Assembly: GCA_002287035.1 (NCBI GenBank)
Contig: NSKG01000001.1
Location: 558,001 to 622,000 of the forward strand
Source: Pseudomonas sp. WN033
Lineage (GTDB): Bacteria > Pseudomonadota > Gammaproteobacteria > Pseudomonadales > Pseudomonadaceae
Length of the DNA: 64,000 bases
Direction: 5' to 3'
The notes under the pieces were generated by a model. The model worked only from the letters and a program-made list of their open reading frames with translations, made no database searches and was not told the DNA's origin. Below, one piece after another: positions 11,474 to 55,491 of the stretch. Both the position numbers and the translations under genes were made by a program. Numbering within the stretch: position 1 is the first letter of the stretch; each line of letters opens with the position of its first letter.

Positions 11474-11842
11474 TTACTTGACAAAACCATCATAAATTAA
11501 CCAGATCAACAATATAGCCAATGCGCCAAATGCAAACCAGTACTTTTTAACAACGGCCCTTTCATTGACCGCAACCATGGGTAGGTATGCCAACTTTAAA
11601 TATGCCCCAAGCAGCATGAGAAAAGCAAAGACCACTAGTGGCAACCATGTTTTATTGATCAACGAAAAAACGCCGACGACTGGAAAAAGTAATGTGCCGA
11701 CCAAGCCTTCGACAGCATTTATACTAGCGGACATACGAGATGGCTTGCCACACGAAGAGCATATAGCCGGATATAGATCGCTAGCTTTGAACTTTTGCCA
11801 AGCGCTAATCGTTTTCTCTCCACAGTAAGGGCACTGATTCAT
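11474..11842 (-). CDS. zinc-ribbon membrane protein, cassette 9
   Basis: A 122-residue protein starting MNQCPYCGEKT. CPYC and CSSC about 28 residues apart form a likely zinc ribbon, followed by three hydrophobic helices. The ATG at 11842 starts just at the ribbon; the longer frame enters the neighbouring attC. No specific role is known for this kind of protein. Confidence 0.6.
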   Translation of the reverse strand: MNQCPYCGEKTISAWQKFKASDLYPAICSSCGKPSRMSASINAVEGLVGTLLFPVVGVFSLINKTWLPLVVFAFLMLLGAYLKLAYLPMVAVNERAVVKKYWFAFGALAILLIWLIYDGFVK

Positions 11843-11855
11843 GATATCCTTGAGT

Positions 11856-11927
11856 GCTAACGCCCGCATTTGCGGCTGGTTTGAAGCGCAGCGGAAAGCC
11901 AGTCCGACAACATGCGTTTGTTAGGAG
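11856..11927 (-). other. attC site of the 228-residue-protein cassette
   Basis: Boundaries are GCTAACGCCC at 11856 and TTGTTAGGAG near 11926. The inner pairing uses GCTGGTTTGAAGCGCAGCGGAAAGCCAG-type halves. Confidence 0.85.
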
Positions 11928-12607: not shown

Positions 12608-12621
12608 TTAGAACGAGGGCT

Positions 12622-12698
12622 CCTAACGCCCGCCATCACCGGTGGCGAAACCGTAGCAGAGCGAAGGTTTTGGCATCCGGTGGATGGCTTGGTTATAA
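12622..12698 (-). other. attC site of the HEPN cassette
   Basis: Boundaries are CCTAACGCCC at 12622 and TTGGTTATA near 12698. The halves CATCACCGGTGG and CATCCGGTGGATG pair around a short centre. Confidence 0.85.
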
Positions 12699-13502
12699 GT
12701 CGCGTAAGCAGCTGGCACAGAGTTCCTCCAATACGAATAGATAAGGACGGACCTCCTCGTCAACTTTTGGATCGATAGGGGAATACCCAAAAGATTTCCC
12801 CAGCTTCAGATGTGCGCAGCGATGACGAATATCAACGATCTCATTCACGAAGCCTTCAAAATCGCCTTCCGGGGCTAACTTGTAAAAATTGCTTCGGAGC
12901 TTTTCTGACGCTTTGAACGCTGCTTTTAACGGTACCTTCTTAGCTCCTGAAAATAAGCTTTCAAGGATTCGAAAGAAGCCAAGGAACCTTTTTATTGGGC
13001 TTTTATCTTCGGCAGCATCATTGAATTGAGAAAGGAGCCGCATATCAACCGGCTTACCCAAGTTTTCTTGAAATTTGTCTGAGTCGAACGCTGGGGCTGG
13101 GACGACTTCTTGAAGGTTTAGCTGTACAGAGTAAAGCTCGTCGCCAAACTCTCGTTCTTCCTCTTCCGTTTCTGCAATACGTTTACAGGTTATCATTCCG
13201 TATTGGACAGTAAACCTGCCTGACTGAAAGGAAATCTGTTGCGCCATGTACTGGGCAACCCACAGGGCGATAGGCTTTGCTTCTTCCTGACCATAAGCAA
13301 GGGTGATGTACAAAGTCCCAACTTGTTCCACACCGGGAGGACAATTTTTCCCGCTTTCTGGTTCAATGCGTACCTCGAACTCAAGACAGTCTATTGGGCC
13401 GTTCCCAAAATCTACAGGATCGTTTGCCGAACCTTTGTACTTGTGCTTTTTTGAAAAGTGAAAGTCGATCGCTTCAAAGCGAAATTGCCACTCAGTTTTC
13501 AA
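12693..13502 (-). CDS. HEPN-domain protein (ApeA-like), cassette 7
   Basis: A 269-residue protein that appears to start at a TTG (13502) with GGGAG seven bases before it. The N-terminal 150 residues form a beta-rich unassigned region. The C-terminal part has KRFLGFFRILESLF (about 171-184) and then IVDIRHRCAHLK with the HEPN catalytic pattern Arg226-x4-His231. HEPN proteins with this motif are RNA-cutting toxins or phage-defence effectors; ApeA is one named example with a similar domain. The match is to the motif and helix pattern only. Confidence 0.6.
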   Translation of the reverse strand: MKTEWQFRFEAIDFHFSKKHKYKGSANDPVDFGNGPIDCLEFEVRIEPESGKNCPPGVEQVGTLYITLAYGQEEAKPIALWVAQYMAQQISFQSGRFTVQYGMITCKRIAETEEEEREFGDELYSVQLNLQEVVPAPAFDSDKFQENLGKPVDMRLLSQFNDAAEDKSPIKRFLGFFRILESLFSGAKKVPLKAAFKASEKLRSNFYKLAPEGDFEGFVNEIVDIRHRCAHLKLGKSFGYSPIDPKVDEEVRPYLFVLEELCASCLRDL

Positions 13503-13521
13503 ACGAAGACTCCCTGTGACT

Positions 13522-13579
13522 TATAACGTCTGCCATCAGCCGCGCGAGGTACGAGCGTCGGCTGCATGGCATGGTTATG
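13522..13579 (-). other. attC site of the wHTH membrane cassette
   Basis: Boundaries are TATAACGTC at 13522 and GGTTATGCC near 13580. It is short (58 bases) and its inner arms CAGCCG and CGGCTG pair well. Confidence 0.85.
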
Positions 13580-13580
13580 C

Positions 13581-14108
13581 CTAAAGCTCCGAGCTTGCTC
13601 GCACGAGTGACCAGCCCTTCGCGGACAAGCCATAAACGGTTCCATTTTTTCCCGACGCCTCGTTGGCCAACTCGTTGTCGACCAACCACTGCAACGAGCG
13701 TAACGCCGTTTGCCTGGAGACATTAGCGTCCTTTGCAACGCCGCTGGGATAGCGCCAAGCATAGTTTGAGTGGGCGAGCGCCTTAACAACGTTACGACCA
13801 GTGGTGTCGAGACCGTATGCCTCAACCTGAAGACCACCTAGGTGCCCTTCCTCCGCGTCCGGTGGCTCGGTTTCCTTGCCGGAAATCGTCTCCACGCGAT
13901 TAGACACCGCCGCTATTTGGGCTCGCAGCTTCGCAGCAACGCCCCCTGCAGAGAATGATTCGAACTTCTCAAGGTTGCTGAAGAATAGACCAAGAGAGCC
14001 TGCTGCTACAGCTACAGCCATCTCGGCAGGCCTTCCAATCAGACCAAAGAGCATCGCTCCCCCAAGAAGCACGCCGAGCGAAATCGTCTCAATAAGATCT
14101 TTATTCAT
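13581..14108 (-). CDS. two-helix membrane protein with winged helix, cassette 6
   Basis: A 175-residue protein. Residues 6-43 hold two hydrophobic helices (ISLGVLLGGAMLFGLIG and MAVAVAAGSLGLFFS), 45-95 is a polar linker, and 95-175 is a MarR/ArsR-style winged helix with VSRQTALRSLQWLVDNELA as recognition part. A membrane-tethered DNA-binding layout is unusual. It could be a membrane-bound regulator, or the winged helix could bind protein. No family is recognised. Confidence 0.6.
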   Translation of the reverse strand: MNKDLIETISLGVLLGGAMLFGLIGRPAEMAVAVAAGSLGLFFSNLEKFESFSAGGVAAKLRAQIAAVSNRVETISGKETEPPDAEEGHLGGLQVEAYGLDTTGRNVVKALAHSNYAWRYPSGVAKDANVSRQTALRSLQWLVDNELANEASGKNGTVYGLSAKGWSLVRASSEL

Positions 14109-14130
14109 ACCTTTACCGTCTTAGATCCGG

Positions 14131-14201
14131 CATAACGCCGCGCTCTGCGGAAAATTTGGAGCGCAGCGGAAAATTTGTCCGGCAGCAGCGCTTTGTTATG
14201 C
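14131..14201 (-). other. attC site of the PIN-like cassette
   Basis: Boundaries are CATAACGCCG at 14131 and TTGTTATGC near 14201. Inner segments with AAAATTTG occur twice, as in the attC at 16117-16188. Confidence 0.85.
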
Positions 14202-15221
14202 ATTACTTACCGTAATCAGTCTTACTTCTGTTTGCACTCCAAGGTACTCATACACTGCCCGTACCTTTCTTACAAAGTTTTCATCTCTCGATAATAATAA
14301 ATTACAGAATGAGGCCATTGATGCGTGACTATTATCACTCATAGCGGCAATAAATCGTCTTTCCTTATGTACTTTGGAGTCGGGGAAGTAGCCAAGAGTG
14401 TTAAGCATGTTATACATACCAGTTACCTTCTGGTGTAGATGGTAAGGTCTGTCAGGGTAGATAGGGTTTATGCGGATCTGGAAAAAGTCTTCTAAGCTGT
14501 TGATGTGATCGTTTTTTGGAAGCTTAACTTTAAAAACATCCCATATTTTTTCGATCACATTTGGTGGCTCTATATTATTTAATTCCTTTGGGCCTATACC
14601 CACTGACTCTCTGTAGGACTTTATTCCATTCCACTCCTTCGTATCAGGAATGTCTTTTGACATCGTATTTTCAAGCTCATGAAGCGTAGATTTATATTGC
14701 TCCATCATTAGTTCGGAATACTCTTTAATCTGCGCCCTCATTTCAACAGGAAGTTCATCAGCGTTTTCGAGCATACCGCCCATAAGCTGTGTAAAAGCAG
14801 CCAACTGTTCTTTATGAATATCAGAAATGCTATCACCCGATCTTCCGCCAGAGAACTTAAACAGCAACTGTTGCATTGAATTTTCAATGCTTCCATATTC
14901 ATTATCATTGCTACAGTGTTCTTCGAATGCTTCAAATACGTCCCTGCTAGTGATGGTCGCTTTGTCAGTTACAATGAAGCCAGGCTGCTCAACAACGATT
15001 TTTAAATGATATGAATCAAGGTTTTTCAGAACATTAAGAAAGTCGTTTTCATAGCCAGCAGATCGTCTTATCTCTTTGAGAGTTTCGTCAGAATAAACAA
15101 TCTGGAACTTGTCCATAAGCTCTCGTCCAAAACTACCCACGCTATTTTTAACGAAAAGATCGAGTATATTTTGATCTAAGTATAGTGTCGGCTTTCCTGA
15201 ATATTGCGGTGTAGAATCCAT
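14196..15221 (-). CDS. PIN-like nuclease-fold protein, cassette 5
   Basis: A 341-residue protein when started at the ATG at 15221. The longer frame reads back through the attC and is not credible. KPTLYLDQNILDLF near residue 16 matches the first acidic strand of PIN-like domains, and near the C-terminus MSDNSHA, LLLSRDENFV and VRAVYEYLG match the later acidic strands. The middle (about 100-250) is helical and unassigned. PIN domains cut RNA. Large PIN-like proteins of this kind are often found near defence genes. It is AT-rich compared with the core genome. Confidence 0.6.
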   Translation of the reverse strand: MDSTPQYSGKPTLYLDQNILDLFVKNSVGSFGRELMDKFQIVYSDETLKEIRRSAGYENDFLNVLKNLDSYHLKIVVEQPGFIVTDKATITSRDVFEAFEEHCSNDNEYGSIENSMQQLLFKFSGGRSGDSISDIHKEQLAAFTQLMGGMLENADELPVEMRAQIKEYSELMMEQYKSTLHELENTMSKDIPDTKEWNGIKSYRESVGIGPKELNNIEPPNVIEKIWDVFKVKLPKNDHINSLEDFFQIRINPIYPDRPYHLHQKVTGMYNMLNTLGYFPDSKVHKERRFIAAMSDNSHASMASFCNLLLSRDENFVRKVRAVYEYLGVQTEVRLITVSNA

Positions 15222-15235
15222 GCTCATCTCAGCTT

Positions 15236-15329
15236 GCATAACGCCCGGCTTTGGGGCGGACTTGGAGCCGCGAAGCGGCGGAAAGGCCGTCCCAGCCCCG
15301 AAGGGGCGACAACAGCCGTTTGTTATGTG
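15236..15329 (-). other. attC site of the 101-residue-protein cassette
   Basis: Boundaries are GCATAACGCCC at 15236 and TTGTTATGTG near 15329. It is about 90% identical by eye to the attC at 51195-51288 in the second array. Confidence 0.9.
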
Positions 15330-15628
15330 CCACACTGGATTGCGGTAGTAAGAACTACCCCAGCCAAGACACCTAGAAAGCCAACAACAACACTTACATA
15401 GGTTGCCCGACTTTGTATTTTAGCAACACGTATCTGAAGCATATGCTCGGCGACGATGCGACGCTCAGGGTTAGTCTGATGAACGCTCTCCTCATGAATA
15501 ACCTTAGCCAACTCCCAAGAGTCCATTCGACGAAGCTCTTTTTCTTCGTCAGTAATAAGAGCGAACCAATAGCTGTATTCGTCTCTAGCGAAGAGAGCTT
15601 TGATCCTGTCTGCCCAAGTGATACGCAT
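15323..15628 (-). CDS. small protein with C-terminal membrane helix, cassette 4
   Basis: A 101-residue protein starting MRITWADRIKALF. The first 75 residues are charged and helical, and a hydrophobic segment at about 76-96 (YVSVVVGFLGVLAGVVLTTA) would anchor it by its tail. No family is recognised. Its stop codon overlaps its attC. Confidence 0.55.
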   Translation of the reverse strand: MRITWADRIKALFARDEYSYWFALITDEEKELRRMDSWELAKVIHEESVHQTNPERRIVAEHMLQIRVAKIQSRATYVSVVVGFLGVLAGVVLTTAIQCGT

Positions 15629-15679
15629 CGTCTTGATACCCTCTTCGATTTACTGATTAATACGGCGCTTCACTACAGC

Positions 15680-15758
15680 ACATAACGACCGCAATAAGCG
15701 GCCGAGTGAAACGAGGTCCGGCGACCGCAGGGAGCGTACTTGATTGCTTGGTTATGTG
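15680..15758 (-). other. attC site of the 109-residue-protein cassette
   Basis: Boundaries are ACATAACGACC at 15680 and TGGTTATGTG near 15758. It shares the inner CGGCCGAGTGAAACGAGG segment with the site at 11376-11470. Confidence 0.85.
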
Positions 15759-15776
15759 TTTCTGGCACTGAGCAAG

Positions 15777-16106
15777 TTATAAGCATTGCGTTTTTAGCTC
15801 CTTAAACAACTCTTTCCCTTGCTCATTGAGCCTTTCGCCAGGTTGACCGCAAGACTGAATATAGGGCGAGTCCAAGTATGTAGCCTCAATTGCTCGCTGT
15901 CGGACAGCTTCTAACTTTGGGTCGGCTATTTCACATGCCTCAAAGTAGTCCCAACCTCTGTAATCAATGTCATCATTGATCCATGAGTCTAGGAGCGCTA
16001 CAACCTCTTCGGGCTCCCACTCAACCGGGCGCATATTCCACTTTCTGAAAGCGTAAAAAGCTATCAGAACAAGACCAACTATGGCTGACCAAAATAGTAC
16101 GCTCAT
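15777..16106 (-). CDS. small N-anchored hypothetical protein, cassette 3
   Basis: A 109-residue protein. MSVLFWSAIVGLVLIAFYAF is a membrane anchor, followed by a soluble part with WEPEEVVALLDSWINDDIDYRGWDYFEACEI, which recalls small immunity-like or DUF proteins but fits no family I can name. Confidence 0.55.
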   Translation of the reverse strand: MSVLFWSAIVGLVLIAFYAFRKWNMRPVEWEPEEVVALLDSWINDDIDYRGWDYFEACEIADPKLEAVRQRAIEATYLDSPYIQSCGQPGERLNEQGKELFKELKTQCL

Positions 16107-16116
16107 CTCAATTTAC

Positions 16117-16188
16117 ACATAACGCCTGCAGCACGGGAAAAATTGTAGCGCAGCGTAAATTTTGTCCCAGTGCCTGCGATTGTTAGCC
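16117..16188 (-). other. attC site of the 150-residue-protein cassette
   Basis: Boundaries are ACATAACGCCTG at 16117 and TTGTTAGCC near 16188. The inner AAAAATTG and TAAATTTTG segments are like those of the site at 14131-14201. Confidence 0.85.
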
Positions 16189-16217
16189 ACCAGCAGGTTT
16201 CACTCTTCTTTATATGG

Positions 16218-16670
16218 CTACTCGGACCTAAAAATGGTTGCTGCATTCTGCCTTGCAATTTCCTTTATCTCGTCAATATTTTGGGGAATTGCACGTTCAT
16301 TTCCCATGACATATTGGACAAACGAGAGCTCGCTAGAAGAGACTGAGCCTTGGGTTAAAGCCCAAACACCAGATTCAAATCTACAATACTCGTAGTATTC
16401 GGGTAGTGTCCGAATAGCACTTTTTGGGCGGTGCTGATTCAGCACATGAGAAGCATTCGCCTTGCAAGCCGATAAATAAATTTGAATTACATGGTCATGA
16501 ACTAATTCCTTCCGCAAGCTCACGAATCTGTCGTATTTTTCTGACTTTTCATGGTACCAATCGTATGTAAACCATAGGGCACCAAGCAGCACTACAGCTA
16601 GCGCTGTTTTCAGAGCACCTGCATTACCTACGGTTGCAATACATCTTTTGAGCAGCTGTTTGTTCGTCAC
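16218..16670 (-). CDS. membrane-anchored hypothetical protein, cassette 2
   Basis: I place the start at the GTG at 16670, which follows AAAGGAAAG, giving 150 residues; the frame is open up to 16733 but that part has no ribosome site. One membrane helix (about residues 18-36, LKTALAVVLLGALWFTYDW) is followed by a soluble domain with three Cys. No family is recognised. Confidence 0.5.
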   Translation of the reverse strand: MTNKQLLKRCIATVGNAGALKTALAVVLLGALWFTYDWYHEKSEKYDRFVSLRKELVHDHVIQIYLSACKANASHVLNQHRPKSAIRTLPEYYEYCRFESGVWALTQGSVSSSELSFVQYVMGNERAIPQNIDEIKEIARQNAATIFRSE

Positions 16671-16738
16671 GCACTTTCCTTTTATAGTTTTGATGAATCC
16701 GGCGCAATTCACTGGCCAGCAACCTAGACACATCAGAA

Positions 16739-16821
16739 GCTAACGCCGCCAACACGCGCAGCTTTGTAGTGGAGGCGAAGCCGCAACGGAAAAGCTGTCG
16801 CTGTGCTTGGCCTTGTTAGCC
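16739..16821 (-). other. attC site of the nuclease cassette (first attC of array 1)
   Basis: Boundaries are AGCTAACGCCG at 16739 and TTGTTAGCC near 16821. It is closely similar to the attC at 50232-50316 in the second array (shared ACACGCGC and GCGAAGCCGCAACG segments). Confidence 0.88.
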
Positions 16822-17676
16822 ATTTTTTGGCGAAATACTTTCAACAACTTCAACACCCAGCATGTTTCGCAGAGGAATAAGTGAATGAGGGAATTTTGAT
16901 TCTAAAACAAGTAAAGCCCGTGCGTTTTGTGGTCGTGACTCTGTAAGCAATACGGCTTCCATGACCGCTCTGTACTTAACGCATTGAAATAGCCCGCGGA
17001 CAATATCTCCCTCGGCAGATACAGAGGACTTGACCTCTGCGGCCACCCAAACCTTCTTGCCACTAAATGAAACATCTAGGCAATCTCCAGATGGCAACAA
17101 ATACTCGGTCGTGCCAAATGGGGTGTTCGCGCCTAGCCCGATGACTTTTGGATTTTGTGCAACATACTCTTTGAGAGCCTTATGCTCGTCGCTCTCGCCG
17201 CCCCCAAAGTCACCTGAGGCTTTATTTACGATCGGTGTGAAATCGGAGGTTGCTGGTTCAAGTTCAAGAGCCTGAAGGACTTCCTGCCATCGAGGGTAAG
17301 AGAACACATGTTGGAGTTCCGCTTCGACGATTGCTCTCTTCTGCCGAAGCGGAAGTGTTGCAAACTCTTCCTTTTTGACGAGAAACCAGCCGATACCCTC
17401 GCCAGGTAGCCCCGTGCTTTTGTTAACCACAAGGCATTGGATAGGCGGGACTTTAACTTTCCATACTTTTGAAAGTAGCTCTAAAGACTGCCCGATGCTC
17501 CCAAGGACGTAGTTGAGATTGCGCGGGTTCGGCATTCCCAACTCTTGAGCAAGGTCAGAATAAAAAACTGTGGCACCAGCCTCAGCTTGACGCACAAGCA
17601 ACGGTAATGCTGCACGAGCCCGTACTTGATATGCCTTGTTTCCCGAGATTGGTTCAGAAATTACTGCTGTGCTCAT
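16816..17676 (-). CDS. PD-(D/E)XK nuclease-like protein, cassette 1
   Basis: A 286-residue protein with GAGGAAATC before its ATG. The N-terminal part (about 35-120) has a helix-turn-helix-like segment, YSDLAQELGMPNPRNLNYVLGSIGQSL, suggesting DNA binding. The C-terminal part (about 158-286) has a PD-(D/E)XK pattern: Glu161 and His165, then CLDVSF (Asp201), VAAEVKSS (Glu214, Lys216) and Gln231 in the following helix. It is the cassette nearest attI, so it was probably the last one captured. It may be a restriction- or defence-type endonuclease; I know no named family. Confidence 0.6.
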   Translation of the reverse strand: MSTAVISEPISGNKAYQVRARAALPLLVRQAEAGATVFYSDLAQELGMPNPRNLNYVLGSIGQSLELLSKVWKVKVPPIQCLVVNKSTGLPGEGIGWFLVKKEEFATLPLRQKRAIVEAELQHVFSYPRWQEVLQALELEPATSDFTPIVNKASGDFGGGESDEHKALKEYVAQNPKVIGLGANTPFGTTEYLLPSGDCLDVSFSGKKVWVAAEVKSSVSAEGDIVRGLFQCVKYRAVMEAVLLTESRPQNARALLVLESKFPHSLIPLRNMLGVEVVESISPKNG

Positions 17677-17689
17677 GATTTCCTCGGAT

Positions 17690-17748
17690 GGCTAACAGTG
17701 AAGTGGATCGACAGCTTTATGACCACATATCGTTGGCTTCTCTATGAT
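17690..17748 (-). other. attI-like recombination site 1
   Basis: On the minus strand a GTTAGCC core (17690-17696) joins the first cassette directly. The sequence beyond it (17704-17748) recurs with one mismatch at 53270-53314, again just before a cassette array. Position between a divergent intI remnant and the first cassette is that of attI. Confidence 0.8.
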
Positions 17749-17865
17749 CACGCTTCTGCCAGTTTCCATCTTAAAATAATATCCAATAAAATCAGCTACC
17801 TGCATAACAGAGCACTGCTCCAGCATGTAATCGCTTGACTTCTCTAAAATGCGTCACCAATAATA

Positions 17866-17881
17866 CTGTATATACATACAG
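17866..17881. promoter_or_regulatory. LexA box of the integrase promoter
   Basis: CTGTATATACATACAG fits the SOS operator pattern CTG(T)-N8-(A)CAG. It lies one base before the ATG of the intI remnant, where LexA boxes are known to control integron integrase genes. Confidence 0.85.
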
Positions 17882-18187: not shown

Positions 18188-18445
18188 ACCTTCGACTTCA
18201 GACACGCTACCGCCCTACCCTTGCGTGGCGGGCATGGCCGGTGAGTTTTATGGGGAATGACGGCTGTCCGTGCCGGGAGGCGGGGTTGGCTGGCATTCCC
18301 TTGCTTTGATCAAGATAATGCAGGCCAGTGGCCAGAGCCAAGTGTTTTTTGTCAGGCCGCGTGGGGGCCCGGCTATGCCGGGCTGTGTTCGAGCAGGCGC
18401 TCGAACGTCCCAGGGGCGAGTACCTGACGGAGGCAGGGGGCGGGG
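18188..18445. other. intergenic junction between intI remnant and purL
   Basis: About 260 GC-rich bases hold no gene I can support. Short hairpins such as GCCCGGCTATGCCGGGC and CGAGCAGGCGCTCG could end the purL transcript. The change from AT-rich to GC-rich sequence marks the edge of the integron. Confidence 0.5.
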
Positions 18446-45714: not shown

Positions 45715-47070
45715 CTACGCGCCGCCCACCGTCATCCCATCCACCAACCAGCTCCCGGTCAGATAGTTGCCGCGCCGCTCCACATCGCTGCCAACACAGC
45801 GCAACTGACGGAACATATCGCGCAGATTACCAGCAATGGTGACCTCCTTGACCGGGTGCACAATCTGGCCATTTTCGACCCAGAACCCACCAGCACCCCG
45901 TGAGTAGTCACCGGTCACCCCGTTGACACCCTGCCCCATCAATTCCGTCACCAGCAGCCCCGTGCCCATTTCCGCCAGCAGCGCATTCAGATCACCGGCA
46001 TTGCTGGTAATGTGCAGATTGTGAACCCCGCCGGCATTGGCCGTACTGGGCAGACCGAGCTTGCGTCCGGAATAGCTGCTGAGCATCCAGCTCTTGAGCA
46101 CACCGTCTTCGACAAAGGCCTGCTCCCGGGTAGCCAGCCCCTCGCCATCGAAAGCTGCACTACCCAATGCGCGCAGCAGATGCGGGCGCTCATCGACCGT
46201 CACCCAGGCGGGGAACAGCGGCTTGCCGAGGGCATCAAGCAGAAAGGTCGACTGGCGATACACCGCACCACCGGCAATCGCCCCCATCAGGCTGCCCAGC
46301 AGACCGGCGGCCTGATCGGCCACAAACAGCACCGGCACCTTGGCAGTCTTGATTGAGCGCGCGCCGATCCGCGCCAGCGCCCGCTCAGCCGCCTTGCGCC
46401 CCAGCGCATCAGCCGCCGGCAACAGCTCGGCCTGGCGATCAACGCCATACCAGTAGTCGCGCTGCATGCCTTCGTCGCTATTGCTGATCATTACCGCCGA
46501 AACACTGTGGCGGGTACCAAGCGAACTGCCAATAAAGCCATGGCTATTGCCATACACCCGGCAACCCTGCTGACTGCTGACGTGAGCCCCGTCGCTCACC
46601 AGCCGGGTATCCAGCGCCAGCCCGGCAGCCTCGCAAGCCAGCGCCCGCTCGATAGCCTGTTCAGCACTCAGTTGCCAGGGGTGGTAAAGGTCCAGATCCG
46701 GCAGATCCCTGGCCATCAGCTCTGGGTCACCAAGTCCGGCATAGGGGTCTTCTGAAGCATGCCGGGCAATCGCCAGCGCCGCCTCCACTGCCGAGCGAAT
46801 CGCCTCATCGGAGGTATCCGACGTGCTGGCCGAACCCTTGCGCTGACCCGCATAAAGGGTGATGCCAAAGCCCTGATCACGGTTGAACTCGACCGTTTCC
46901 ACCTCGCCCTGACGCACGCCAACCGACAGCCCGGTGTTCTGGCTGACCGCCACCTCGCAGGCCGATGCACCCTGGCGGCGGGCCTCGTCGAGAATAAAGG
47001 CCACGCGCTGCTCCAGATGCAGGCGCAAGCCTTGGGGATCGTCGTGTTGTACGGCGGGATTGGCAGTCAT
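45715..47070 (-). CDS. pmbA: TldE/PmbA-type metalloprotease subunit
   Basis: A 451-residue protein with SVGVRQGEVETVEFNRDQGFGITLYAGQRKGSAS near the N-terminus and GVNGVTGDYSRGAGGFWVENGQIVHPVKEVTIAGNL at the C-terminus, typical of TldE/PmbA. With TldD it forms a peptidase involved in microcin B17 maturation and CcdA decay; TldE itself lacks the HExxxH site. It is divergent from yjgA. Confidence 0.95.
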   Translation of the reverse strand: MTANPAVQHDDPQGLRLHLEQRVAFILDEARRQGASACEVAVSQNTGLSVGVRQGEVETVEFNRDQGFGITLYAGQRKGSASTSDTSDEAIRSAVEAALAIARHASEDPYAGLGDPELMARDLPDLDLYHPWQLSAEQAIERALACEAAGLALDTRLVSDGAHVSSQQGCRVYGNSHGFIGSSLGTRHSVSAVMISNSDEGMQRDYWYGVDRQAELLPAADALGRKAAERALARIGARSIKTAKVPVLFVADQAAGLLGSLMGAIAGGAVYRQSTFLLDALGKPLFPAWVTVDERPHLLRALGSAAFDGEGLATREQAFVEDGVLKSWMLSSYSGRKLGLPSTANAGGVHNLHITSNAGDLNALLAEMGTGLLVTELMGQGVNGVTGDYSRGAGGFWVENGQIVHPVKEVTIAGNLRDMFRQLRCVGSDVERRGNYLTGSWLVDGMTVGGA

Positions 47071-47173
47071 GTCACCTCCTGATAATCAGGCCCCTAGTCT
47101 ACCCCATCCAGAGCCGGACAGCCGTTCCGCAACCGGGTATCATATTGGCTGATTCAATTCCAACGGTATCACC

Positions 47174-47695
47174 ATGACCGAGTTTCACGATGAACAGCAG
47201 TTTGATGAGGACGAAGGCGTCAGCAAGAGCCAGGTCAAGCGCGAACTGCAAGCCCTGCGCGACCTGGGCCAACGCCTGCTCGAGCTCAAGCCGGAACAGC
47301 TGGCCAAGCTCGAACTGACCGACAAACTGCGCCTGGCGCTGGCTGAAGCCCACAAGCACACCGCCCGTGGCGCGCTCAAGCGCCACATGAGCTTTGTCGG
47401 CAAGCTGATGCGTGACCAGGATATCGAGGCGATCCAGGCCTTTGTCGACCGTCTGGACAGCAGCAGCCAAGCCCACGCCCAGCACTTCCACCAGCTCGAA
47501 CGCTGGCGCGACCGCATCCTCAGCGGCAACCCGGACGAACTGGAAGCCTTCATCAGCAGCTACCCCCAGGCCGCCAGCGAGCGCCAGACCCTACGCCAAC
47601 TGACCCGTCAGGCGGCCAAGGAAGCCAAGGAAAACAAACCACCAGCCGCCGCCCGCAAGGTCTTCAAACTGATCAGAACGCTGGTTGAAGAGTAA
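47174..47695 (+). CDS. yjgA: ribosome-associated protein YjgA/DarP
   Basis: A 173-residue highly charged helical protein, with SKSQVKRELQALRDLGQRLLEL and the YPQAASERQTLRQLTRQAAKE segment. DarP/YjgA binds late pre-50S particles and helps assembly. Gene order pmbA/yjgA divergent is conserved in pseudomonads. Confidence 0.92.
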   Translation: MTEFHDEQQFDEDEGVSKSQVKRELQALRDLGQRLLELKPEQLAKLELTDKLRLALAEAHKHTARGALKRHMSFVGKLMRDQDIEAIQAFVDRLDSSSQAHAQHFHQLERWRDRILSGNPDELEAFISSYPQAASERQTLRQLTRQAAKEAKENKPPAAARKVFKLIRTLVEE

Positions 47696-47772
47696 GCACA
47701 ACCGTCCCGAATCAGGCTGCCATTCCCCTCCTGCTACGAAAATTGCATTGTGATGCCACCTATACCAAAATA

Positions 47773-47787
47773 TACCAATTATTGGTA
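47773..47787 (+). promoter_or_regulatory. putative ParD operator palindrome
   Basis: TACCAATTATTGGTA has perfect 7-base arms and lies 15 bases before the parD start, with two near-copies of TATACCAA just upstream. ParD proteins repress their own operon from such sites. Confidence 0.65.
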
Positions 47788-47802
47788 TTCGGAGGTGGCG
47801 TC

Positions 47803-48042
47803 ATGCAAAAGAACACCAGCATTACCCTAGGCAAGCATTTTGATGCACTTATCGCAGAACTGCTCAAAAATGGCCGCTACAGTTCAACCAGCGAAGTCGT
47901 TCGAGCAGGGTTGCGTCTGCTTGAAGAGTCCGAAACCCGCCTGAATACGCTCCGCAAGCAACTCAAGGAAGGCGAAGATAGTGGTTTCGAAGACTACTCC
48001 TATGACTCGTTTATTAATGAACTGGACAACGAAGAGCACTGA
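47803..48042 (+). CDS. parD: ParD-family antitoxin
   Basis: A 79-residue protein: MQKNTSITLGKHFDALIAELLKNGRYSSTSEVVRAGLRLLEE is a ribbon-helix-helix domain, and the acidic tail would wrap the toxin. GGAGGT lies six bases before the ATG at 47803; the longer frame upstream crosses the operator and is not credible. It overlaps the toxin gene by one base. Confidence 0.88.
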   Translation: MQKNTSITLGKHFDALIAELLKNGRYSSTSEVVRAGLRLLEESETRLNTLRKQLKEGEDSGFEDYSYDSFINELDNEEH

Positions 48043-48338
48043 TGCCGATTTTCAAGCTTTCCAGGAAGGCCAAAGCAGACCTCAAGTCGATTGCGATCTA
48101 CACGGAACGTAAATGGGGCCGGAATCAACGAAACCACTACATTCTTCAGTTCGATCAGTGCTTCCACCTCTTGACCGAGAATCCGAGCCTGGGGCAAAGC
48201 TGCGATGAGATAAGCCCTGGCTACCGGCTTTACCCACAAGGAAGCCATATCATTTTTTACCGGCTCACCCAGGAAAATGCTGTAGAAATTATCCGTATCC
48301 TGCATAAGCGTATGCTGCCAGAGGGGCAGCTTCTATAG
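48042..48338 (+). CDS. parE: ParE-family toxin
   Basis: A 98-residue RelE/ParE-fold protein: FKLSRKAKADLKSIAIYTERKWG, GYRLYPQGSHIIFYR and IIRILHKRM. ParE toxins poison DNA gyrase. The module is on the plus strand, opposite to the array genes that follow, and has no attC, so it may be an independent insertion between yjgA and the second array. Confidence 0.88.
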   Translation: MPIFKLSRKAKADLKSIAIYTERKWGRNQRNHYILQFDQCFHLLTENPSLGQSCDEISPGYRLYPQGSHIIFYRLTQENAVEIIRILHKRMLPEGQLL

Positions 48339-48362: not shown

Positions 48363-48848
48363 TCATCCACGCAGCGCCGCCTCGATCGCAGCAATGTCGA
48401 TCTTGCGCATTTGCATCATCGCCTCGAAAACACGCTTGGCCGTAGCAGGATCGGAGTGCATGAGCGCCTGGGTCAGGACAACCGGGGTTATCTGCCAAGA
48501 CAACCCCCACTTGTCCTTACACCAACCACATTCGCTTTCCTGGCCACCGTTTCCAACAATCGCATTCCAATAACGGTCCGTCTCCTCCTGGTCCGTGGTT
48601 GCAACCTGAAACGAGAACGCCTCACTGTGCGTGAACTCAGGTCCGCCATTAAGTCCCAGACACGGGATACCCATCACAGTGAAATCAACAGTCAGCGCAT
48701 CCCCCTTCTTACCCGCCGGGTAATCTCCCGGCGCGTAGAGGACTGCGCCAACGGATGAGTCAGGGAAGGTATCTGCGTAGAAGCGCGCGGCCTCTTCGGC
48801 ATCGCCGTCGTACCAAAGGCAGATGGTGGTCTTGGCTGGTGTTTTCAT
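48363..48848 (-). CDS. PhnB-like VOC-family protein
   Basis: A 161-residue protein: ICLWYDGDAEEAARFYADTFPDSSV, CLGLNGGPEFTHSEAFSFQV and CGWCKDKWGLSWQITP match the 3-demethylubiquinone methyltransferase-like VOC group. AGGAGC precedes the ATG. No substrate is known. It is a more typical member than the cassette protein at 8.8 kb. I see no attC beside it. Confidence 0.8.
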   Translation of the reverse strand: MKTPAKTTICLWYDGDAEEAARFYADTFPDSSVGAVLYAPGDYPAGKKGDALTVDFTVMGIPCLGLNGGPEFTHSEAFSFQVATTDQEETDRYWNAIVGNGGQESECGWCKDKWGLSWQITPVVLTQALMHSDPATAKRVFEAMMQMRKIDIAAIEAALRG

Positions 48849-48933
48849 GTCTTTGCTCCTGTTCGGCTCTGGGTATCACACCTGGTAGTCGCACGAAGAA
48901 AGAGCAAATCGACATGCCCCGCCGAGAAATGAG

Positions 48934-49353
48934 CTACAACAACGCCTTGAGAGCTTCCAAACTATCGGGCCCAGCCGCCAGCCGCACGCAACCCTTTGCC
49001 TCCTGCTCCCATGAAGCAGCAGAAGACAGATGCAGGTGAACAGCAACCCGTGATGCAATCTCTCCGCTTAGCAGACCGGCAGGCACCCAGATCCAGCCTG
49101 TATCGCGCACCACGTTGGGCACCGGGCTGCCACAAACCGAACAAAAATCACTGCGGTAGCCGGTTGGTTTTTGAAATGAACTGATCCTGGATTCGCCGGC
49201 AACCCAACGGAAGCACTCTTGCCGCACAAACGTAGCGGCATTGGCTGTCGACCCAGTGGCCTGACGACACAGAGAACAATGACATTGATAGAGATTCGGC
49301 AGATCCCCTTCAATCTCAAACACCACCTCACCGCAGAGGCACACGCCCTTCAT
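48934..49353 (-). CDS. GFA (Mss4-like) zinc-binding protein
   Basis: A 139-residue protein of the glutathione-dependent formaldehyde-activating family: GVCLCGEVVFEI, YQCHCSLCRQATGS and FCSVCGSPV supply Cys pairs for zinc. Members are loosely linked to thiol or formaldehyde chemistry; the real substrate is rarely known. AAAGGAATG precedes the start. Confidence 0.82.
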   Translation of the reverse strand: MKGVCLCGEVVFEIEGDLPNLYQCHCSLCRQATGSTANAATFVRQECFRWVAGESRISSFQKPTGYRSDFCSVCGSPVPNVVRDTGWIWVPAGLLSGEIASRVAVHLHLSSAASWEQEAKGCVRLAAGPDSLEALKALL

Positions 49354-49388
49354 GGATCATTCCTTTGAGAATTAACACCAAGCACAAA

Positions 49389-49845: not shown

Positions 49846-49932
49846 TGTAACGCAAAGCTAAGCGGTCGCCCGTAAGGGGCGTCCGGTGGAGGCCCGTAGG
49901 GCCGGTGTCAGGTGAATACTTGATCTGTACAC
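49846..49932 (-). other. attC-like site of the 93-residue-protein cassette
   Basis: It runs from TGTAACGC at 49846 to TGTACACATG near 49935, with inner GGCCCGTAGGGCC and CGCCCGTAAGGGGCG hairpins. The distal box is poorer than in the other sites, so it may be decayed. Confidence 0.5.
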
Positions 49933-49936
49933 ATGC

Positions 49937-50218
49937 CTATTCTTTCGCCAATACGACAAATGCAATGCCTACGATCAGTAGCGCTGAAGGAACGATTGCA
50001 TAAGCGACAAAACCAGACCAAGAGTTCGCTTTAAAAGCCTTAACACCATCAGAAATCAACACTGCGACCAAAAGCAAACTGACTATGCCAATTAGCAAGT
50101 GGCTCCGATAGCCCGGTTCAAGCCCAATGCTAAGAAACAAGGGACCAATAACCGCACCTATCCATGCGAAGGCGACACCTTTTGCACCGATAAATGTCTG
50201 GTACGCATCTTTGCTCAT
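49937..50218 (-). CDS. small three-helix membrane protein, array-2 cassette 4
   Basis: A 93-residue protein starting MSKDAYQTFIGAKG at 50218. Three hydrophobic helices (about 12-30, 39-57 and 70-90) fill most of it. No family is recognised. Confidence 0.55.
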   Translation of the reverse strand: MSKDAYQTFIGAKGVAFAWIGAVIGPLFLSIGLEPGYRSHLLIGIVSLLLVAVLISDGVKAFKANSWSGFVAYAIVPSALLIVGIAFVVLAKE

Positions 50219-50231
50219 ATGCACTTAATAC

Positions 50232-50316
50232 TCATAACGCCGCCAACACGCGCGGCTTTGTAGTGAAAGCGAAGCCGCAACGAAGAAGCCGTCGCCGTGC
50301 TTGGCTTGGTTATGCC
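50232..50316 (-). other. attC site of the DUF2971-like cassette
   Basis: Boundaries are TCATAACGCCG at 50232 and TGGTTATGCC near 50316. It is closely similar to the attC at 16739-16821. Confidence 0.88.
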
Positions 50317-51179
50317 TGCCGCTTTGAAAATATATATGCACTGGGCATTTCCGGTTGTTCCACGGAATGCACTTCAGTTATTTCTAGCTTGTACCCACAC
50401 TCACTCATTTCATTTAGTGGGAGTTCAATATAGCTGAGTTCCCCCGAATTTTTAGGTTGCGGACCAAAGCCTTCCCACACCCGATACAAAGCTCTATATT
50501 CATTCTCAATGCCATAGTCCTTACCGCAAAGATAGAACGAGCAAAGTCTCGATATTCCCTTTAGAATAAATTCGCGACCATATTTCTCCCGGATACAGCC
50601 GCTTAACTCATATAGCAATGGAATTGGAGTCCCTTCCGATTGCTCGTAGCGAAGCTTCCTGAAATTCGGGTTCGAAGCCGTTATATTGAATTTTAGTCTC
50701 ACACCGTCACAAGCAGCAAAATTTCCCCAAAACCATTCTTCTTGATCTTTCGTAAGCGACACGCCAGTGAACGATGCGTAGAATGTATTTGGCATTATCA
50801 AGTGCTTGTATTTCGGGTCTCCATTTTCATCTTCCTTGAGATACCCATTCAGATTATGCGTTTTACAGAACGTTTCGATCTCACCTTCGCTGAAGCGCTT
50901 AGCGATATTGGTGAGCCGAAAAGTTCCTGAATTCATAATGCTTTCAGCGGCATCTCTAGAGGTAAAATGATAGACACTAGCGATTTCAATGCTTGGCCAC
51001 AAATGATTCGTGATCGCGTCCGATAGTTCTGCCTCTGGTTTTACAAAATCAGAAACTGTCTTTTCTGTAATTGTGACATCCGAAAGGCAGATTTCTTTTT
51101 CAATACCATGCTTAGCAAGGACAGCATTAATATCCGCAATCATCGAATTCATCATTTCAATTCTCTGCAATGGTGTCAC
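50310..51179 (-). CDS. DUF2971-like protein, array-2 cassette 3
   Basis: A 289-residue protein starting at the GTG at 51179 after GGGAGG. SVYHFTSRDAAESIMNSGTFRLTNIAKRFSEGEIE near residues 68-102 and EEWFWGNFAACDGVRLKFNI near 152 resemble DUF2971 proteins, where 'stay in this window' motifs F.S....N and W..Y....GV.L.F occur. Members are often found in defence regions; the activity is unknown. The match is loose. Confidence 0.5.
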   Translation of the reverse strand: MTPLQRIEMMNSMIADINAVLAKHGIEKEICLSDVTITEKTVSDFVKPEAELSDAITNHLWPSIEIASVYHFTSRDAAESIMNSGTFRLTNIAKRFSEGEIETFCKTHNLNGYLKEDENGDPKYKHLIMPNTFYASFTGVSLTKDQEEWFWGNFAACDGVRLKFNITASNPNFRKLRYEQSEGTPIPLLYELSGCIREKYGREFILKGISRLCSFYLCGKDYGIENEYRALYRVWEGFGPQPKNSGELSYIELPLNEMSECGYKLEITEVHSVEQPEMPSAYIFSKRQA

Positions 51180-51194
51180 TACACCTCCCGTAGG

Positions 51195-51288
51195 ACATAA
51201 CGCCCGGCTTGGGGGCGGACTTGTAGCCGCGAAGCGGCGGAGAGGCCGCCCCAGCCCTGCAGGGGCGACAACAGCCGTTGGTTATGTT
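51195..51288 (-). other. attC site of the coiled-coil cassette
   Basis: Boundaries are ACATAACGCCC at 51195 and TGGTTATGTT near 51288. It differs from the attC at 15236-15329 at only about ten positions by eye. Confidence 0.9.
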
Positions 51289-51758
51289 TTTTCCCGGGCA
51301 CCGGTCTTCAAGTCCTTTCGGGCAATTTCAACAAGGTCTTCAAGACAACTATTAGCCGCATCCCAGTCAAGTTCTAAATACTCATACCATGAATCCGCCC
51401 TACTAGCTTCATTGGTGTCTTGACGATATTTTCGCAGTCTGTCTCTGGCCTCAGTTCCTAAGAGAAAACCGCCCATGTCGGTCGCCCGATTAATTTCTCG
51501 GTGTGCTTCAGCAGACTTTGCTCTAAGTTCTTTATCGCGTTCTTCAGGGACTTCACGCCCCTCTGTTTCTGCATCCATATGAACGTCAGTGAAAGCTTTT
51601 GAGTGATGCAGGGCTTCTATTACCTTTTCATACGCTGCCACCCTACGTTCCCACCATCGTTCCTCACGGAAACGCCTAACAGATAACTGCACAGTAATAA
51701 AAGCAGTTACACCGGCAATAATAATTCCGGCTATTATGCTTGTAATAAATTCAATCAT
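51282..51758 (-). CDS. membrane-anchored coiled-coil protein, array-2 cassette 2
   Basis: A 158-residue protein starting MIEFITSIIAGIIIAGVTAFITVQL. One membrane helix is followed by a long charged helical part rich in Arg and Glu (about 30-150). It recalls phage-defence or signalling accessory proteins of unknown role. No family is recognised. I chose the ATG at 51758 so that the membrane helix opens the protein. Confidence 0.55.
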   Translation of the reverse strand: MIEFITSIIAGIIIAGVTAFITVQLSVRRFREERWWERRVAAYEKVIEALHHSKAFTDVHMDAETEGREVPEERDKELRAKSAEAHREINRATDMGGFLLGTEARDRLRKYRQDTNEASRADSWYEYLELDWDAANSCLEDLVEIARKDLKTGAREKT

Positions 51759-51773
51759 TGCGCTTACCCAAGA

Positions 51774-51830
51774 ACATAACGCTCGCCTCAAGTGCGCGCT
51801 TGCGCGTCACTTTGAAGGCGCTTGTTAGCA
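51774..51830 (-). other. attC site of the AlbA_2 cassette
   Basis: Boundaries are ACATAACGCTCG at 51774 and TTGTTAGC near 51829. The inner arms AAGTGCGCGC and GCGCGTCACTT pair strongly in a compact site. Confidence 0.88.
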
Positions 51831-51837
51831 TTGAGAT

Positions 51838-53232
51838 TCAGGATCGAACCAAACGATATCGAAATTTAAACGGCGATGCACTTGGATCTACTGGCTCAAT
51901 CACTCCATCTTGCCGCAATTTTTGGAGTGCTTTCTTAACCTTGTTTATGTCATCTTCGCCGCTAAGCTCACGCACCATGCGGTTGGTGATTTCATCGGCA
52001 GAGTTGGCATTGAGATGCCTGACGATAACGTCTTCTATTGAGGCCAACTCCTGATGCCGAATGGTGACCAAAAAGGCGTTTTCCATCTCTTTGAATTCGG
52101 GCGGCACTAGGCCAGCTTTTTTCAGTTCGTTTCGCGCAGTATCCAATCCTTCTCCGATATCGTGATTTAGCGGATCTGGCAAGTTGTGAATCATGCGATT
52201 AATATTGGGGTTTCTCGAAAATCTATCGCTATATAAGTTTTCGACTGTCATGAACCCAGGCAACTTTCCAGGACTAGAGACTTCGATACGATTGTCGTAA
52301 ATTTTGATATGAATATCATCGTTTAAGCTGTAATCTCGATGAAGAGCAGCATTAACCAAAATTTCCTTAATAGCCTCGACCGGGTATTTCAACTTTACAA
52401 GCTTCTGGCCATCCTTAAAGGTAGCCCCTTCTAACAGTGCCTCTACCTTTTCCAAAGACTTACGTACCGCGACCTCAAGTGGGCCAGATATAGTAGTGGG
52501 CATCTCAGCGAGCTGCTCACGTTTATATTCTGAACTCGTTGTGAGTAGTCGGTATACTTTGAAGGAGCAACGGGTCGGAAGTGATGATGAAGGGGCATCG
52601 TCGAAAAGCAGAACCGCCCCAACATTCGGAACTCGCTCCCCGTTAGTTTTGGTCAGTAGTTTTTGTTTTCGCAAAAAATCTTCGGGTGTCTGTTTGCTGC
52701 CTATGCGACTTATGTATTCACTCAGATACTCGCTTTCTACCAAGTCATCCAATTCCATTCCATCCACAGCTAAACGCTCGTAAACCAACGCGCCTTTACT
52801 GTACGAGAGCTGAGTAATTCTTTCTCCCTTAATCTTTCTTTTTTCGGCGCCGATTCTTATGTAGCAGTCACCACTTGAGGTGTAGTGAACTTTTGGGCTC
52901 TTGGGAATCAAAAGACGCATGACAAGCCCCCTAGAACCAAAGTCAATCAGTTCGACATCGACGTTCTCAACTGATGGCTCTGTTTCTTCAAGCAGCGTTG
53001 GCAAAATACCGTTACATTCTTCCTGATTAAAAAAGCCGACGATTCGCTCTCCAGGCTCAGACTGATCTTCAATGCCAACAAACAGCTCGCCGCCATCGGC
53101 GTTCGCAAATGCTACGAAGCTCTGTTGTAGCTTTGCCGGATTGATGCGCTTGCTCTTCAGATCGACGAAGTGACCTTCGCCTAATGAAAGCAGCCGAGCT
53201 TCCTCGTTGTCTTCTGGTTTTCGGATTTCCAT
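51838..53232 (-). CDS. AlbA_2 / HATPase_c_4 protein, array-2 cassette 1
   Basis: A 464-residue protein after AAGGAGAATTA. An AlbA_2 (Schlafen-like) domain (about 12-135, with FVDLKSKRINPAKLQQSFVAFANADGGELFVGIED and GDCYIRIGAEKRK) is followed by an ATPase-like domain of the HATPase_c_4 kind (about 280-390: EAIKEILVNAALHRDYS, DNRIEVSSPGKLPG) and a C-terminal winged helix. Proteins of this layout are annotated as ATP-dependent DNA helicase-like regulators and often occur in defence islands. It is the first cassette after attI-like site 2. Confidence 0.75.
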   Translation of the reverse strand: MEIRKPEDNEEARLLSLGEGHFVDLKSKRINPAKLQQSFVAFANADGGELFVGIEDQSEPGERIVGFFNQEECNGILPTLLEETEPSVENVDVELIDFGSRGLVMRLLIPKSPKVHYTSSGDCYIRIGAEKRKIKGERITQLSYSKGALVYERLAVDGMELDDLVESEYLSEYISRIGSKQTPEDFLRKQKLLTKTNGERVPNVGAVLLFDDAPSSSLPTRCSFKVYRLLTTSSEYKREQLAEMPTTISGPLEVAVRKSLEKVEALLEGATFKDGQKLVKLKYPVEAIKEILVNAALHRDYSLNDDIHIKIYDNRIEVSSPGKLPGFMTVENLYSDRFSRNPNINRMIHNLPDPLNHDIGEGLDTARNELKKAGLVPPEFKEMENAFLVTIRHQELASIEDVIVRHLNANSADEITNRMVRELSGEDDINKVKKALQKLRQDGVIEPVDPSASPFKFRYRLVRS

Positions 53233-53255
53233 TAATTCTCCTTATTACTTTTGAC

Positions 53256-53314
53256 TGCTAACATTGGGATGGATCGACAGCTTTATGACCACATATCATT
53301 GGCTTCTCTATGAT
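53256..53314 (-). other. attI-like recombination site 2
   Basis: On the minus strand a GTTAGCA core (53256-53262) precedes the first cassette. The sequence from 53270 to 53314 matches 17704-17748 at 44 of 45 positions. No integrase sequence lies beyond it. Confidence 0.75.
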
Positions 53315-53349
53315 TGCGGTCCTTACCAACACAGACGAGTGAAAAAATC

Positions 53350-53529
53350 TCATGCATTCAATCCCTTAGCCAACTCCCCAAACACTACAGCGTAATCGCT
53401 TGGCTTCTCTGTTTCATGCGCGCAATCATGCCCTGGCGCACACTGGGCGCAGGGTTTTGCATGTGATTCAAGGGTGCATGGCTGGGCGAGGGCTGTTCTG
53501 CTGCGGCTTGCGTGTCCTTGCTGGGTCAT
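53350..53529 (-). CDS. small cysteine-containing protein
   Basis: A 59-residue protein, MTQQGHASRSRTALAQPCTLESHAKPCAQCAPGHDCAHETE..., with AAGGAGGTCAGC before its ATG at 53529. Four Cys and three His in the centre could bind a metal. The frame extends upstream without support. I recognise no family; the ribosome site is the best evidence that it is real. Confidence 0.55.
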   Translation of the reverse strand: MTQQGHASRSRTALAQPCTLESHAKPCAQCAPGHDCAHETEKPSDYAVVFGELAKGLNA

Positions 53530-53632
53530 GCTGACCTCCTTGTCGATAATGGTTTGAAGATAAACCGTTATCGCGTGAAGGCCAAGGGCCATTTTTTGCG
53601 GCTGAGCGCCAAAACCTGGGCAGCAGAAAAGC

Positions 53633-53685: not shown

Positions 53686-55491
53686 TTAGTAGCCCAGAGC
53701 GAAGTCGTCCTCGGCCATGTCCATCAGGTTGTCAGCACCGGACAGGATGGCTTCAACATGCGCGCGGGTACGCGGCAGGATGCGCTGGTAGTAGAAGCGC
53801 GCAGTCTGCAGCTTGGCCTTGTAGAAGGCCGCGTCGTCAGTACCGGCAGCCAGCTTCTCAGCGGCCACGCGGGCCATGTCAGCCCAGAAGTAGGCCAGGC
53901 AGACATAACCGGAGTACATCAGGTAGTCAACCGAGGCGGCACCGACCATCTCGCGGTCTTTCATGGCGGCCATGCCGATCTTCATGGTCAGGTCTGCCCA
54001 TTCCTTGTTCAACTGAGCCAGCGGCGCAACGAACTCTTTGACCGAGTCGTTGGCTTCCTGAGCCTGGCAGAACTTGTGGACGATCTTGGTGAAGCCCTTG
54101 AGTGCTTCGCCCTGGGTCATCAGTACCTTGCGGCCGAGCAGGTCGAGAGCCTGGATGCCGGTGGTGCCTTCATACAGCATGGAGATACGGGCATCACGCA
54201 CGTTCTGTTCCATGCCCCACTCGGCGATGAAACCGTGACCGCCGTAGATCTGCACGCCGTGGTTGGCGGCTTCGAAGCCGACTTCGGTCATGAACGCCTT
54301 GGCGATCGGGGTGAGGAAGGCCAGCAACGCATCAGCGGCTTTCTTCTGCTCAGCATCCTGGCTGTTCTTGACGATATCCACCTGCTTGGCGGTGAAGTAG
54401 ACCATTGCCCGGTTGCCTTCGGCAAAGGCTTTCATGGTCAGCAGCATGCGGCGTACATCGGGGTGAACGATGATCGGGTCAGCGGCTTTCTCAGGCGCCT
54501 TGGCACCGGTCAGAGCGCGCATTTGCAGACGCTCGCGGGCATACTTGATGCCGCCCTGGAAGCCGATTTCGGCATGGGCCAGACCCTGCAGGGCGGTACC
54601 CAGACGGGCGGTGTTCATGAAGGTGAACATGGCGTTCAGGCCCTTGTTCGGCTCGCCGATCAGGAAGCCGGTGGCGCCGTCGAAGTTCATGACGCAAGTG
54701 GCGTTGCCATGGATACCCATTTTGTGTTCCAGCGAGCCGCAGGATACGCCATTGCGCTCGCCCTTCTCGCCATTGGCGTCGGGCAGGAACTTGGGAACGA
54801 TGAACAGGGAGATACCCTTGGTGCCGGCCGGTGCGTCGGGCAGGCGGGCCAGAACGATATGGACGATGTTCTCGGCCATGTCGTGCTCACCGGAAGAAAT
54901 AAAGATCTTGGTGCCGGAAACCTTGTAGCTGCCATCGGCCTGCGGCTCAGCCTTGGTGCGCAGCATGCCCAGGTCGGTACCGCAATGCGGCTCGGTCAGA
55001 CACATGGTGCCGGTCCACTGACCGGAAACCAGTTTGGTCAGGTAGACGTGCTTCTGCTCGTCGCTGCCGTGGGTGTCGATGGTGTTCATGGCGCCGTGCG
55101 ACAGGCCCGGGTACATACCCCAGGACCAGTTGGCCTGGCCAACCATTTCGCTGATCGCCAGACCCAGCGACTCGGGCAGGCCCTGACCACCGTGCTCAAC
55201 GTCATGCGCCAGGCTCGGCCAGCCGCCTTCAACGAACTGCTGATAGGCTTCCTTGAAGCCAGTCGGGGTCTTGACGCCTTCCGGACTCCAGGTGCAACCC
55301 TCGGTGTCGCCAACGCGGTTCAACGGAGCAATCACCTGCTCACAGAACTTGGCGCCCTCTTCCAGAATCGCATTGACCATATCCGGAGTGGCGTCTTCGC
55401 AACCCGGCAGACTCTGATAATGTTCTTCGTAACCCAGAAGTTCATCACGCACGAAACGGATGTCACGCAGGGGAGCCTTGTAATCTGGCAT
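53686..55491 (-). CDS. acyl-CoA dehydrogenase (large, FadE/DmdC type)
   Basis: A 601-residue FAD enzyme. [22 protein letters not shown] is the flavin-binding segment; [37 protein letters not shown] holds the C-terminal active region, followed by an extra C-terminal domain typical of large dehydrogenases including DmdC-like 3-methylmercaptopropionyl-CoA dehydrogenases. It oxidises acyl-CoA to enoyl-CoA in the cytoplasm. A PsrA-type site upstream suggests control by long-chain acyl-CoA and a role in fatty acid breakdown. Confidence 0.88.

Follow-up and report, generated by a model that had tools for sequence, protein, structure and literature searches.

Integrase-less attI sites head cassette arrays at shared chromosomal loci in Pseudomonas and are probably served in trans

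The usual picture of an integron has one integrase and one insertion point. We studied a 64,000 bp stretch of the genome of Pseudomonas sp. WN033 (hereafter the window; 58% GC, from a genome of 4.16 Mb in 23 contigs, G000) in which two attI-like sites, A and B, each stand at the head of a cassette array, and the second has no integrase gene beside it. What kind of element is an attI with cassettes and no integrase, and does it still take part in the exchange of cassettes? The positions of the features discussed are given in Table 1.

Alignment of the two sites confirmed the 45-base repeat pointed out in the initial annotation: 44 of 45 bases agree between positions 53270-53314 and 17704-17748, with a single G/A difference, and both copies end in a GTTAGC core, each at the head of a leftward cassette array whose junction falls between G and TTAGC. 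A second, distal attI box lies at equal spacing in both sites beyond the 45 bases, so that the entire attI of about 155 bp is duplicated. A (17693-17842) and B (53259-53407) are thus one attI in identical orientation, with the GTT core adjoining the first cassette in each.

Table 1 Features of sites A and B in the window and of further sites in the same genome
Feature	Position	Strand	Basis and remarks
Cassette array A, at least 8.9 kb	8755-17692	-	attC matches
Site A proximal attI	17693-17748	-	Core GTTA 17693-17696; alignment to B and model R1 match
Site A distal attI box, GAAGTCAAGCGATTACA	17826-17842	-	Alignment of 29 attI regions
Palindrome that we take to be LexA-box-like, intI promoter of site A	17866-17881		Sequence
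intI remnant of site A, ~94 N-terminal codons	17894-18175	+	tblastn, 61% to intact IntI; TIGR02249, E 1.5e-22
ops element GGCGGTAGCGTG in leader A	18203-18214	-	Identical to ops12 of PMC5995543
Leader A, between purL and intI	18203-18341	-	Promoter-like TTGGCT 18336-18341 and TATCTT 18312-18317, then ops; promoter read by eye
Conserved distal flank of array B	48363-49361	-	96% to G016
Decayed attC, array B	near 49847	-	Read by eye
Cassette array B	49847-53258	-	Genes 51838-53232, 51282-51791, 50310-51179, 49937-50224
attC of array B	51774-51830, 51195-51287, 50232-50315	-	Own detector
Site B proximal attI	53259-53314	-	Core GTTA 53259-53262; 44/45 to A; model R1, E 1.3e-13
Site B distal attI box, GAAGCCAAGCGATTACG	53391-53407	-	Spacing as in intI-linked attI; alignment of 29 attI regions
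59-codon open frame in leader	53350-53529	-	In B and C of this genome and G016
Leader B	53510-53598	-	TTGGCC 53580-53585, 17 bp, TATCTT 53557-53562; Shine-Dalgarno-like stretch; promoter read by eye
Site C	C12:354573-354746		91% to B over 174 of 175 bp (query, 175 bp of B)
Site D, degenerate	C19:99051-99186		Model R1 search

Site A adjoins purL (NCBIfam). A working integrase had been implied here, wrongly: the gene next to attI is just the remnant of ~94 codons, and no match in the genome passed the cut-off of the integron-integrase family (TIGR02249), the best one being this same fragment. Near site B neither an integrase gene nor any trace of intI was found, i.e., neither site has the intact intI beside attI of a complete integron. 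Nine attC candidates scoring above 7.5 in our own detector lie left of A; the attC at 8755-8842 came from a first, strict scan, which found few sites and was replaced by this detector. The cassette at 9360-10475 encodes a Shedu-type SduA of an anti-phage defence family (PADLOC SduA, E 4e-160), and the first cassette gene of the array (16816-17676) has relatives 83-88% identical in records of a Rhodoferax, of a betaproteobacterium and of a Halomonas; judged from these relatives, it appears to be a widely travelling cassette.

Three attC candidates, scoring 8.5, 9.5 and 14.5, lie left of B and bound a cassette array; two of them are at or above the threshold of 9.5, and the background of the detector was two matches, both of 9.0, on both strands of 27.5 kb at threshold 9. 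The one scoring 8.5 is a candidate by its context, that background having been taken at threshold 9 and not at 7.5. With attC from our own detector, site B fits the definition of a CALIN (at least two attC and no integrase nearby). The first cassette of array B (51838-53232) encodes an AlbA_2/Schlafen-like protein with a partial-model PADLOC match to pAgo (E 7e-18). Site B is flanked by yjgA and by a gene resembling acyl-CoA dehydrogenase (53686-55491), whose matches stay below the family cut-offs. In 5 of the 28 other relatives examined at this place the dehydrogenase gene (fadE) and yjgA are adjacent, with 63-120 bp between them, and therefore B probably came to the fadE-yjgA junction as a unit; the remaining 23 showed no yjgA within the stretch examined.

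Promoter-like boxes, read by eye, may mark a cassette promoter (Pc) in leaders A and B. The open frame of 59 codons in leader B was rejected as a protein: substitutions fell mostly at codon position 2 in five of six comparisons (the sixth gave 5/5/5), so that the codon-position counts show no sign of selection at the protein level.

The attI loci of this genome number four (A, B, C and D, the last one degenerate). The earlier proposal of one integron lineage with two insertion points, the second lacking integrase, was thus right in kind and understated in number. A longer query revealed that the leader of B, present also in G016, is common to sites C and D of this genome. G016 is a sister genome in a single contig, in which A, B and C each have a counterpart and which also contains a leader of the D type and a fifth site, E. 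Downstream of B and of C the two genomes carry unrelated cassettes. At B, the flanks (47000-47712 and 48363-49361) are 96-98% identical and nothing matches from 49361 to attI; the identity of the distal flank, 96%, indicates that it does not consist of exchanged cassettes. A parDE toxin-antitoxin pair (47743-48338) lies beside yjgA in a gap of this otherwise conserved flank. Behind the site A attI of G016 stands an element that brings a recombinase-like gene of its own (L020, around 15773-16720; 32% to IntI), and attI in G019 (L112, L120) show this junction too.

We then surveyed 37 genomes of the genus with a model, R1, trained solely on 18 intI-linked attI in order to avoid circularity. Matches were obtained in 34 genomes (99 at E<=0.01), of which 94 at E<=3.8e-5 were kept and five weaker ones dropped. 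Upstream of 26 of these 94 attI there was an intI, whole or as a remnant; the other 68, distributed in 29 genomes and hereafter called satellites, had none in the up to 1.6 kb of upstream sequence searched (at least 500 bp could be examined for 65 of them). Twenty satellites lie in single-contig genomes, and G018 alone has five together with one site bearing intI. TIGR02249 was above cut-off in 24 of the 37 genomes, and an IntI reading frame without stops coexists with satellites in at least eight (G005, G007, G015, G019, G023, G025, G026 and G033). The end of the R1 match did not fall exactly on GTT in 9 of the 68 satellites, in a few merely by a one-base shift. No match to leader or attI was found on plasmids. 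A further intI, preceded by sequence that is presumably class 1 attI1-like, is present in genomes G035, G029 and G022 (L030, L031, L032).

The 63 satellites with at least 700 bp upstream formed 30 locus clusters by flank similarity and single linkage, a procedure that may merge or split loci; the largest clusters are common to 9, 7 and 6 species, and intI is absent at all 9, 7 and 6 copies. One two-member cluster (cluster 7) showed no leader homology. At least one attC was detected downstream of 39 of the 56 satellites with at least 3 kb of downstream sequence (strict detector) and none in the other 17. The attC density was 65 in 235 kb downstream of satellites versus 5 in 78.8 kb of upstream flank, a control that is not clean. 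The sites found in related genomes thus mostly head cassettes and are not an unrelated repeat lying free of them as the initial annotation had allowed for.

Sites of this kind are not confined to the genus. Among 248 genomes of the family, R1 matched in 59, belonging to 6 of 19 genera; 25 of these genomes, in five genera, are from outside this genus. Integrase-less attI likewise occur in two other genera, where 18 of 20 fetched sites (four genomes) had no intI within 1.6 kb, as searched with six intI references of this genus; intI was above cut-off in 8 of 11 R1-positive genomes of other genera. G174, a genome of another genus, has three integrase-less attI within 10 kb (L253, L254, L255).

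Do the cassettes behind these sites change while the sites stay? We compared 84 of the 91 possible orthologous pairs (in the other seven the downstream sequence was too short, and pairs from one cluster depend on each other). Leader and attI were homologous in 83 of them, with at least 85% identity over at least 395 bp in 23. No pair had a first cassette in common, i.e., within 1.5 kb downstream no homologous DNA started 80 bp or less from the core, so the turnover after the core was complete. A fixed leader-attI with differing downstream DNA is the mark that cassette exchange leaves at a constant site, and it argues that orphan attI loci keep exchanging cassettes, as the sequences suggest most simply through IntI acting in trans. 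Cassette swaps may also have come about by homologous recombination between strains.

Satellites also tend to resemble the intI-linked attI of their own genome. For 44 satellites, those whose genome has such an attI, mean identity of the 44-bp attI core to the intI-linked attI of the same genome was 0.78 versus 0.64 when permuted (0 of 2000 permutations), in a test that ignores species relatedness. The own intI-linked attI ranked first for 18 of the 44 and was closer than the average of the others for 35. In cluster 0, G017 and G029 bear the variant of their own intI-linked attI, and G003, G005, G007, G022 and G025 bear the other. The nine satellites no closer to their own intI-linked attI are in G000 (site D), G002, G018, G019, G023 and G029; the integrases of these genomes may have been replaced.

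As to the origin of satellites, a half LexA box plus a sequence like the -10 of intI was observed beside attI in 21 of the 68 (10 clusters, 16 genomes) and in 15 of 1390 control windows; this pattern was defined after inspecting satellite leaders and matches just 13 of the 26 intI-linked sites. It is absent from B, C and D. The satellites bearing it look like integrons minus intI, and these remains of the intI promoter argue that at least those satellites descend from complete integrons.

Taken together, we hold with good confidence that B is an integrase-less "satellite" platform derived from an integron, one of several attI stations served in trans by one chromosomal integrase. It would consist of a leader that carries a cassette promoter, a complete attI of two parts and a cassette array, left from an integron whose intI was not kept. 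The one chromosomal integrase would act in trans on every attI in the cell and insert cassettes at each core, between G and TT, so that a single enzyme would serve several docking and expression sites. Site B itself would have received its cassettes from an integrase that has since decayed in this strain, and, since no integrase of the genome is above cut-off, it may now be inert.

This same decay, together with the promoter remains, would fit a different account, in which satellites are dead integrons that captured their cassettes before losing their own intI and in which nothing has moved since. We consider it unlikely: at the three largest loci no copy has intI, yet every compared pair differs right after the core; the full attI has been retained, distal box included; and stop-free IntI frames coexist with satellites in the eight or more genomes listed above.

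Other accounts fared far worse. The cassettes might have landed at secondary sites (attG), an array having grown there with an incidental likeness to attI. Such sites, in work by Loot from 2024, are said to carry cassette arrays without intI, as here, but reportedly are not attI-like. Insertion at attG by integrases is cited in PMC12444791 and PMC12901181, as far as the relevant passages of these papers go; nevertheless about 155 bp at the present sites, distal box included, match intI-linked attI, and the sites occupy identical loci across species, which contradicts insertion at attI-unlike sites and makes this account very improbable. We likewise give hardly any credit to, and rejected, the idea that the 45-base segment belongs to an unrelated dispersed repeat: one leader does recur at three places in this genome (B, C and D), but 26 of the 94 matches sit at intI, attC are enriched downstream of satellites, and all 84 pairs differ in what follows the core. 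An assembly artefact or misjoined contigs, conceivable for a genome in 23 contigs, is next to impossible given the same layout in single-contig G016 and the 20 satellites of single-contig genomes.

A motif search on the leaders of 30 locus representatives gave GGCGGTAGCGTG, the ops12 sequence as printed in PMC5995543. Allowing at most one mismatch, we found ops in 43 of 92 array heads and in none of 247 control windows; the opposite strand of the heads had no copy. The 43 comprise 26 of 66 satellites, searched over 450 bp, and 17 of 26 intI-linked sites, searched over 1600 bp. In complete copies of the latter, the ops-bearing leader lies just past the 3' end of intI and points to the array; in satellites such a leader runs directly into attI. 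Leader A has ops, and leaders B, C and D lack it.

This 12-base element recruits RfaH, and its presence in 43 of the heads suggests antitermination, which would plausibly act from leader A. RfaH (TIGR01955) was above cut-off in 29 of 37 genomes, this one included. Where the genome has RfaH, 39 of 66 heads had ops, versus 4 of 26 where it has none (Fisher P 1.6e-4, kinship ignored); counted per genome, ops heads occurred in 21 of 26 with RfaH versus 3 of 8 without (P 0.03, kinship ignored). The three exceptions, G004, G010 and G026, include two highly fragmented genomes. Twenty ops copies away from R1 sites were fetched and six of their downstream genes typed: two glmS, one wzc-like polysaccharide kinase, two weak Wzz-like chain-length genes and one unmatched, which from their sequences are plausible RfaH targets. 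Several further such copies sit inside unrelated sequence. In G006 and G014 (L189, L191, L192, L196, L198) ops leaders are followed by a different attI-like sequence, recognized by eye and unreported by R1; these loci are perhaps satellites of another integrase type.

Rfam gave no match at gathering threshold in the window and none at E<=1 in leader A; at seven other loci it gave matches only below gathering, JUMPstart in the L103 leader (22.9 bits, E 0.92) and a snoRNA in L104 (28.8 bits, E 0.029), the last taken as chance. RNAalifold on MAFFT alignments (38 of 58 rows kept in one) gave nothing useful, and we therefore claim no conserved leader structure. Overall, we regard as rather likely a distributed integron, in which one integrase would feed several attI stations at common loci, each behind a promoter leader of its own; in much of the genus, RfaH recruited by ops in these leaders would carry transcription through long arrays.

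How does this compare with known systems? Against the premise that clusters without integrase normally lack attI stands at least one published case, an integrase-less CALIN with its own 28-bp attI in a Shewanella prophage (PMC9892861, in the part relevant here). There, too, two attI of the same type share one replicon and one lacks integrase; unlike that single case, the present sites are chromosomal and make up about 30 locus clusters. Xanthomonas CALINs, as described in the pertinent text of PMC12444791, occupy seven loci at relatively conserved positions and can be mobilised in trans, and so share with our sites the distance of arrays from intI, the relatively conserved positions and the possible mobilisation in trans; unlike the Pseudomonas arrays, each headed by a complete attI behind a leader, they are presented in that text with no mention of attI or leader. 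Mobilisation of CALINs by a resident integrase, and cassette position, are also treated in the corresponding part of PMC12690207. For Pseudomonas stutzeri Q, PMC8876359 reports from Coleman and Holmes 2005 a Pc 25 bp downstream of the intI coding gene, and elsewhere places it "within its integrase gene"; the promoter-like boxes of leader A similarly lie beyond intI, and integrase-less attI and ops distinguish the present system from that account as excerpted. The Delta-attI-type gene cassettes of mobile integrons (PMC12901181, same limitation to the matching passages) also have attI pieces away from intI, mostly a short piece at a cassette end; here a full attI with distal box and leader stands at the array head. 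Among the literature matches listed on several or orphan attI and on ops or RfaH in integrons, with subscription literature mostly outside their scope, there was no report of such a system, of its scale, its conserved loci or its ops leader, the prophage case being the one printed precedent found.

The integron platform appears to be split in these bacteria: loci without integrase are kept from species to species, their cargo turns over, and the satellites therefore look like standing parts of the system. If the link with ops and RfaH is true, it would be a layer of integron control with no report among the matches listed, and it would bear on how distal cassettes get transcribed. The reading of CALINs would change, since some of them may be live stations overlooked when attI is left unscored, and several first-position expression slots per cell would follow.
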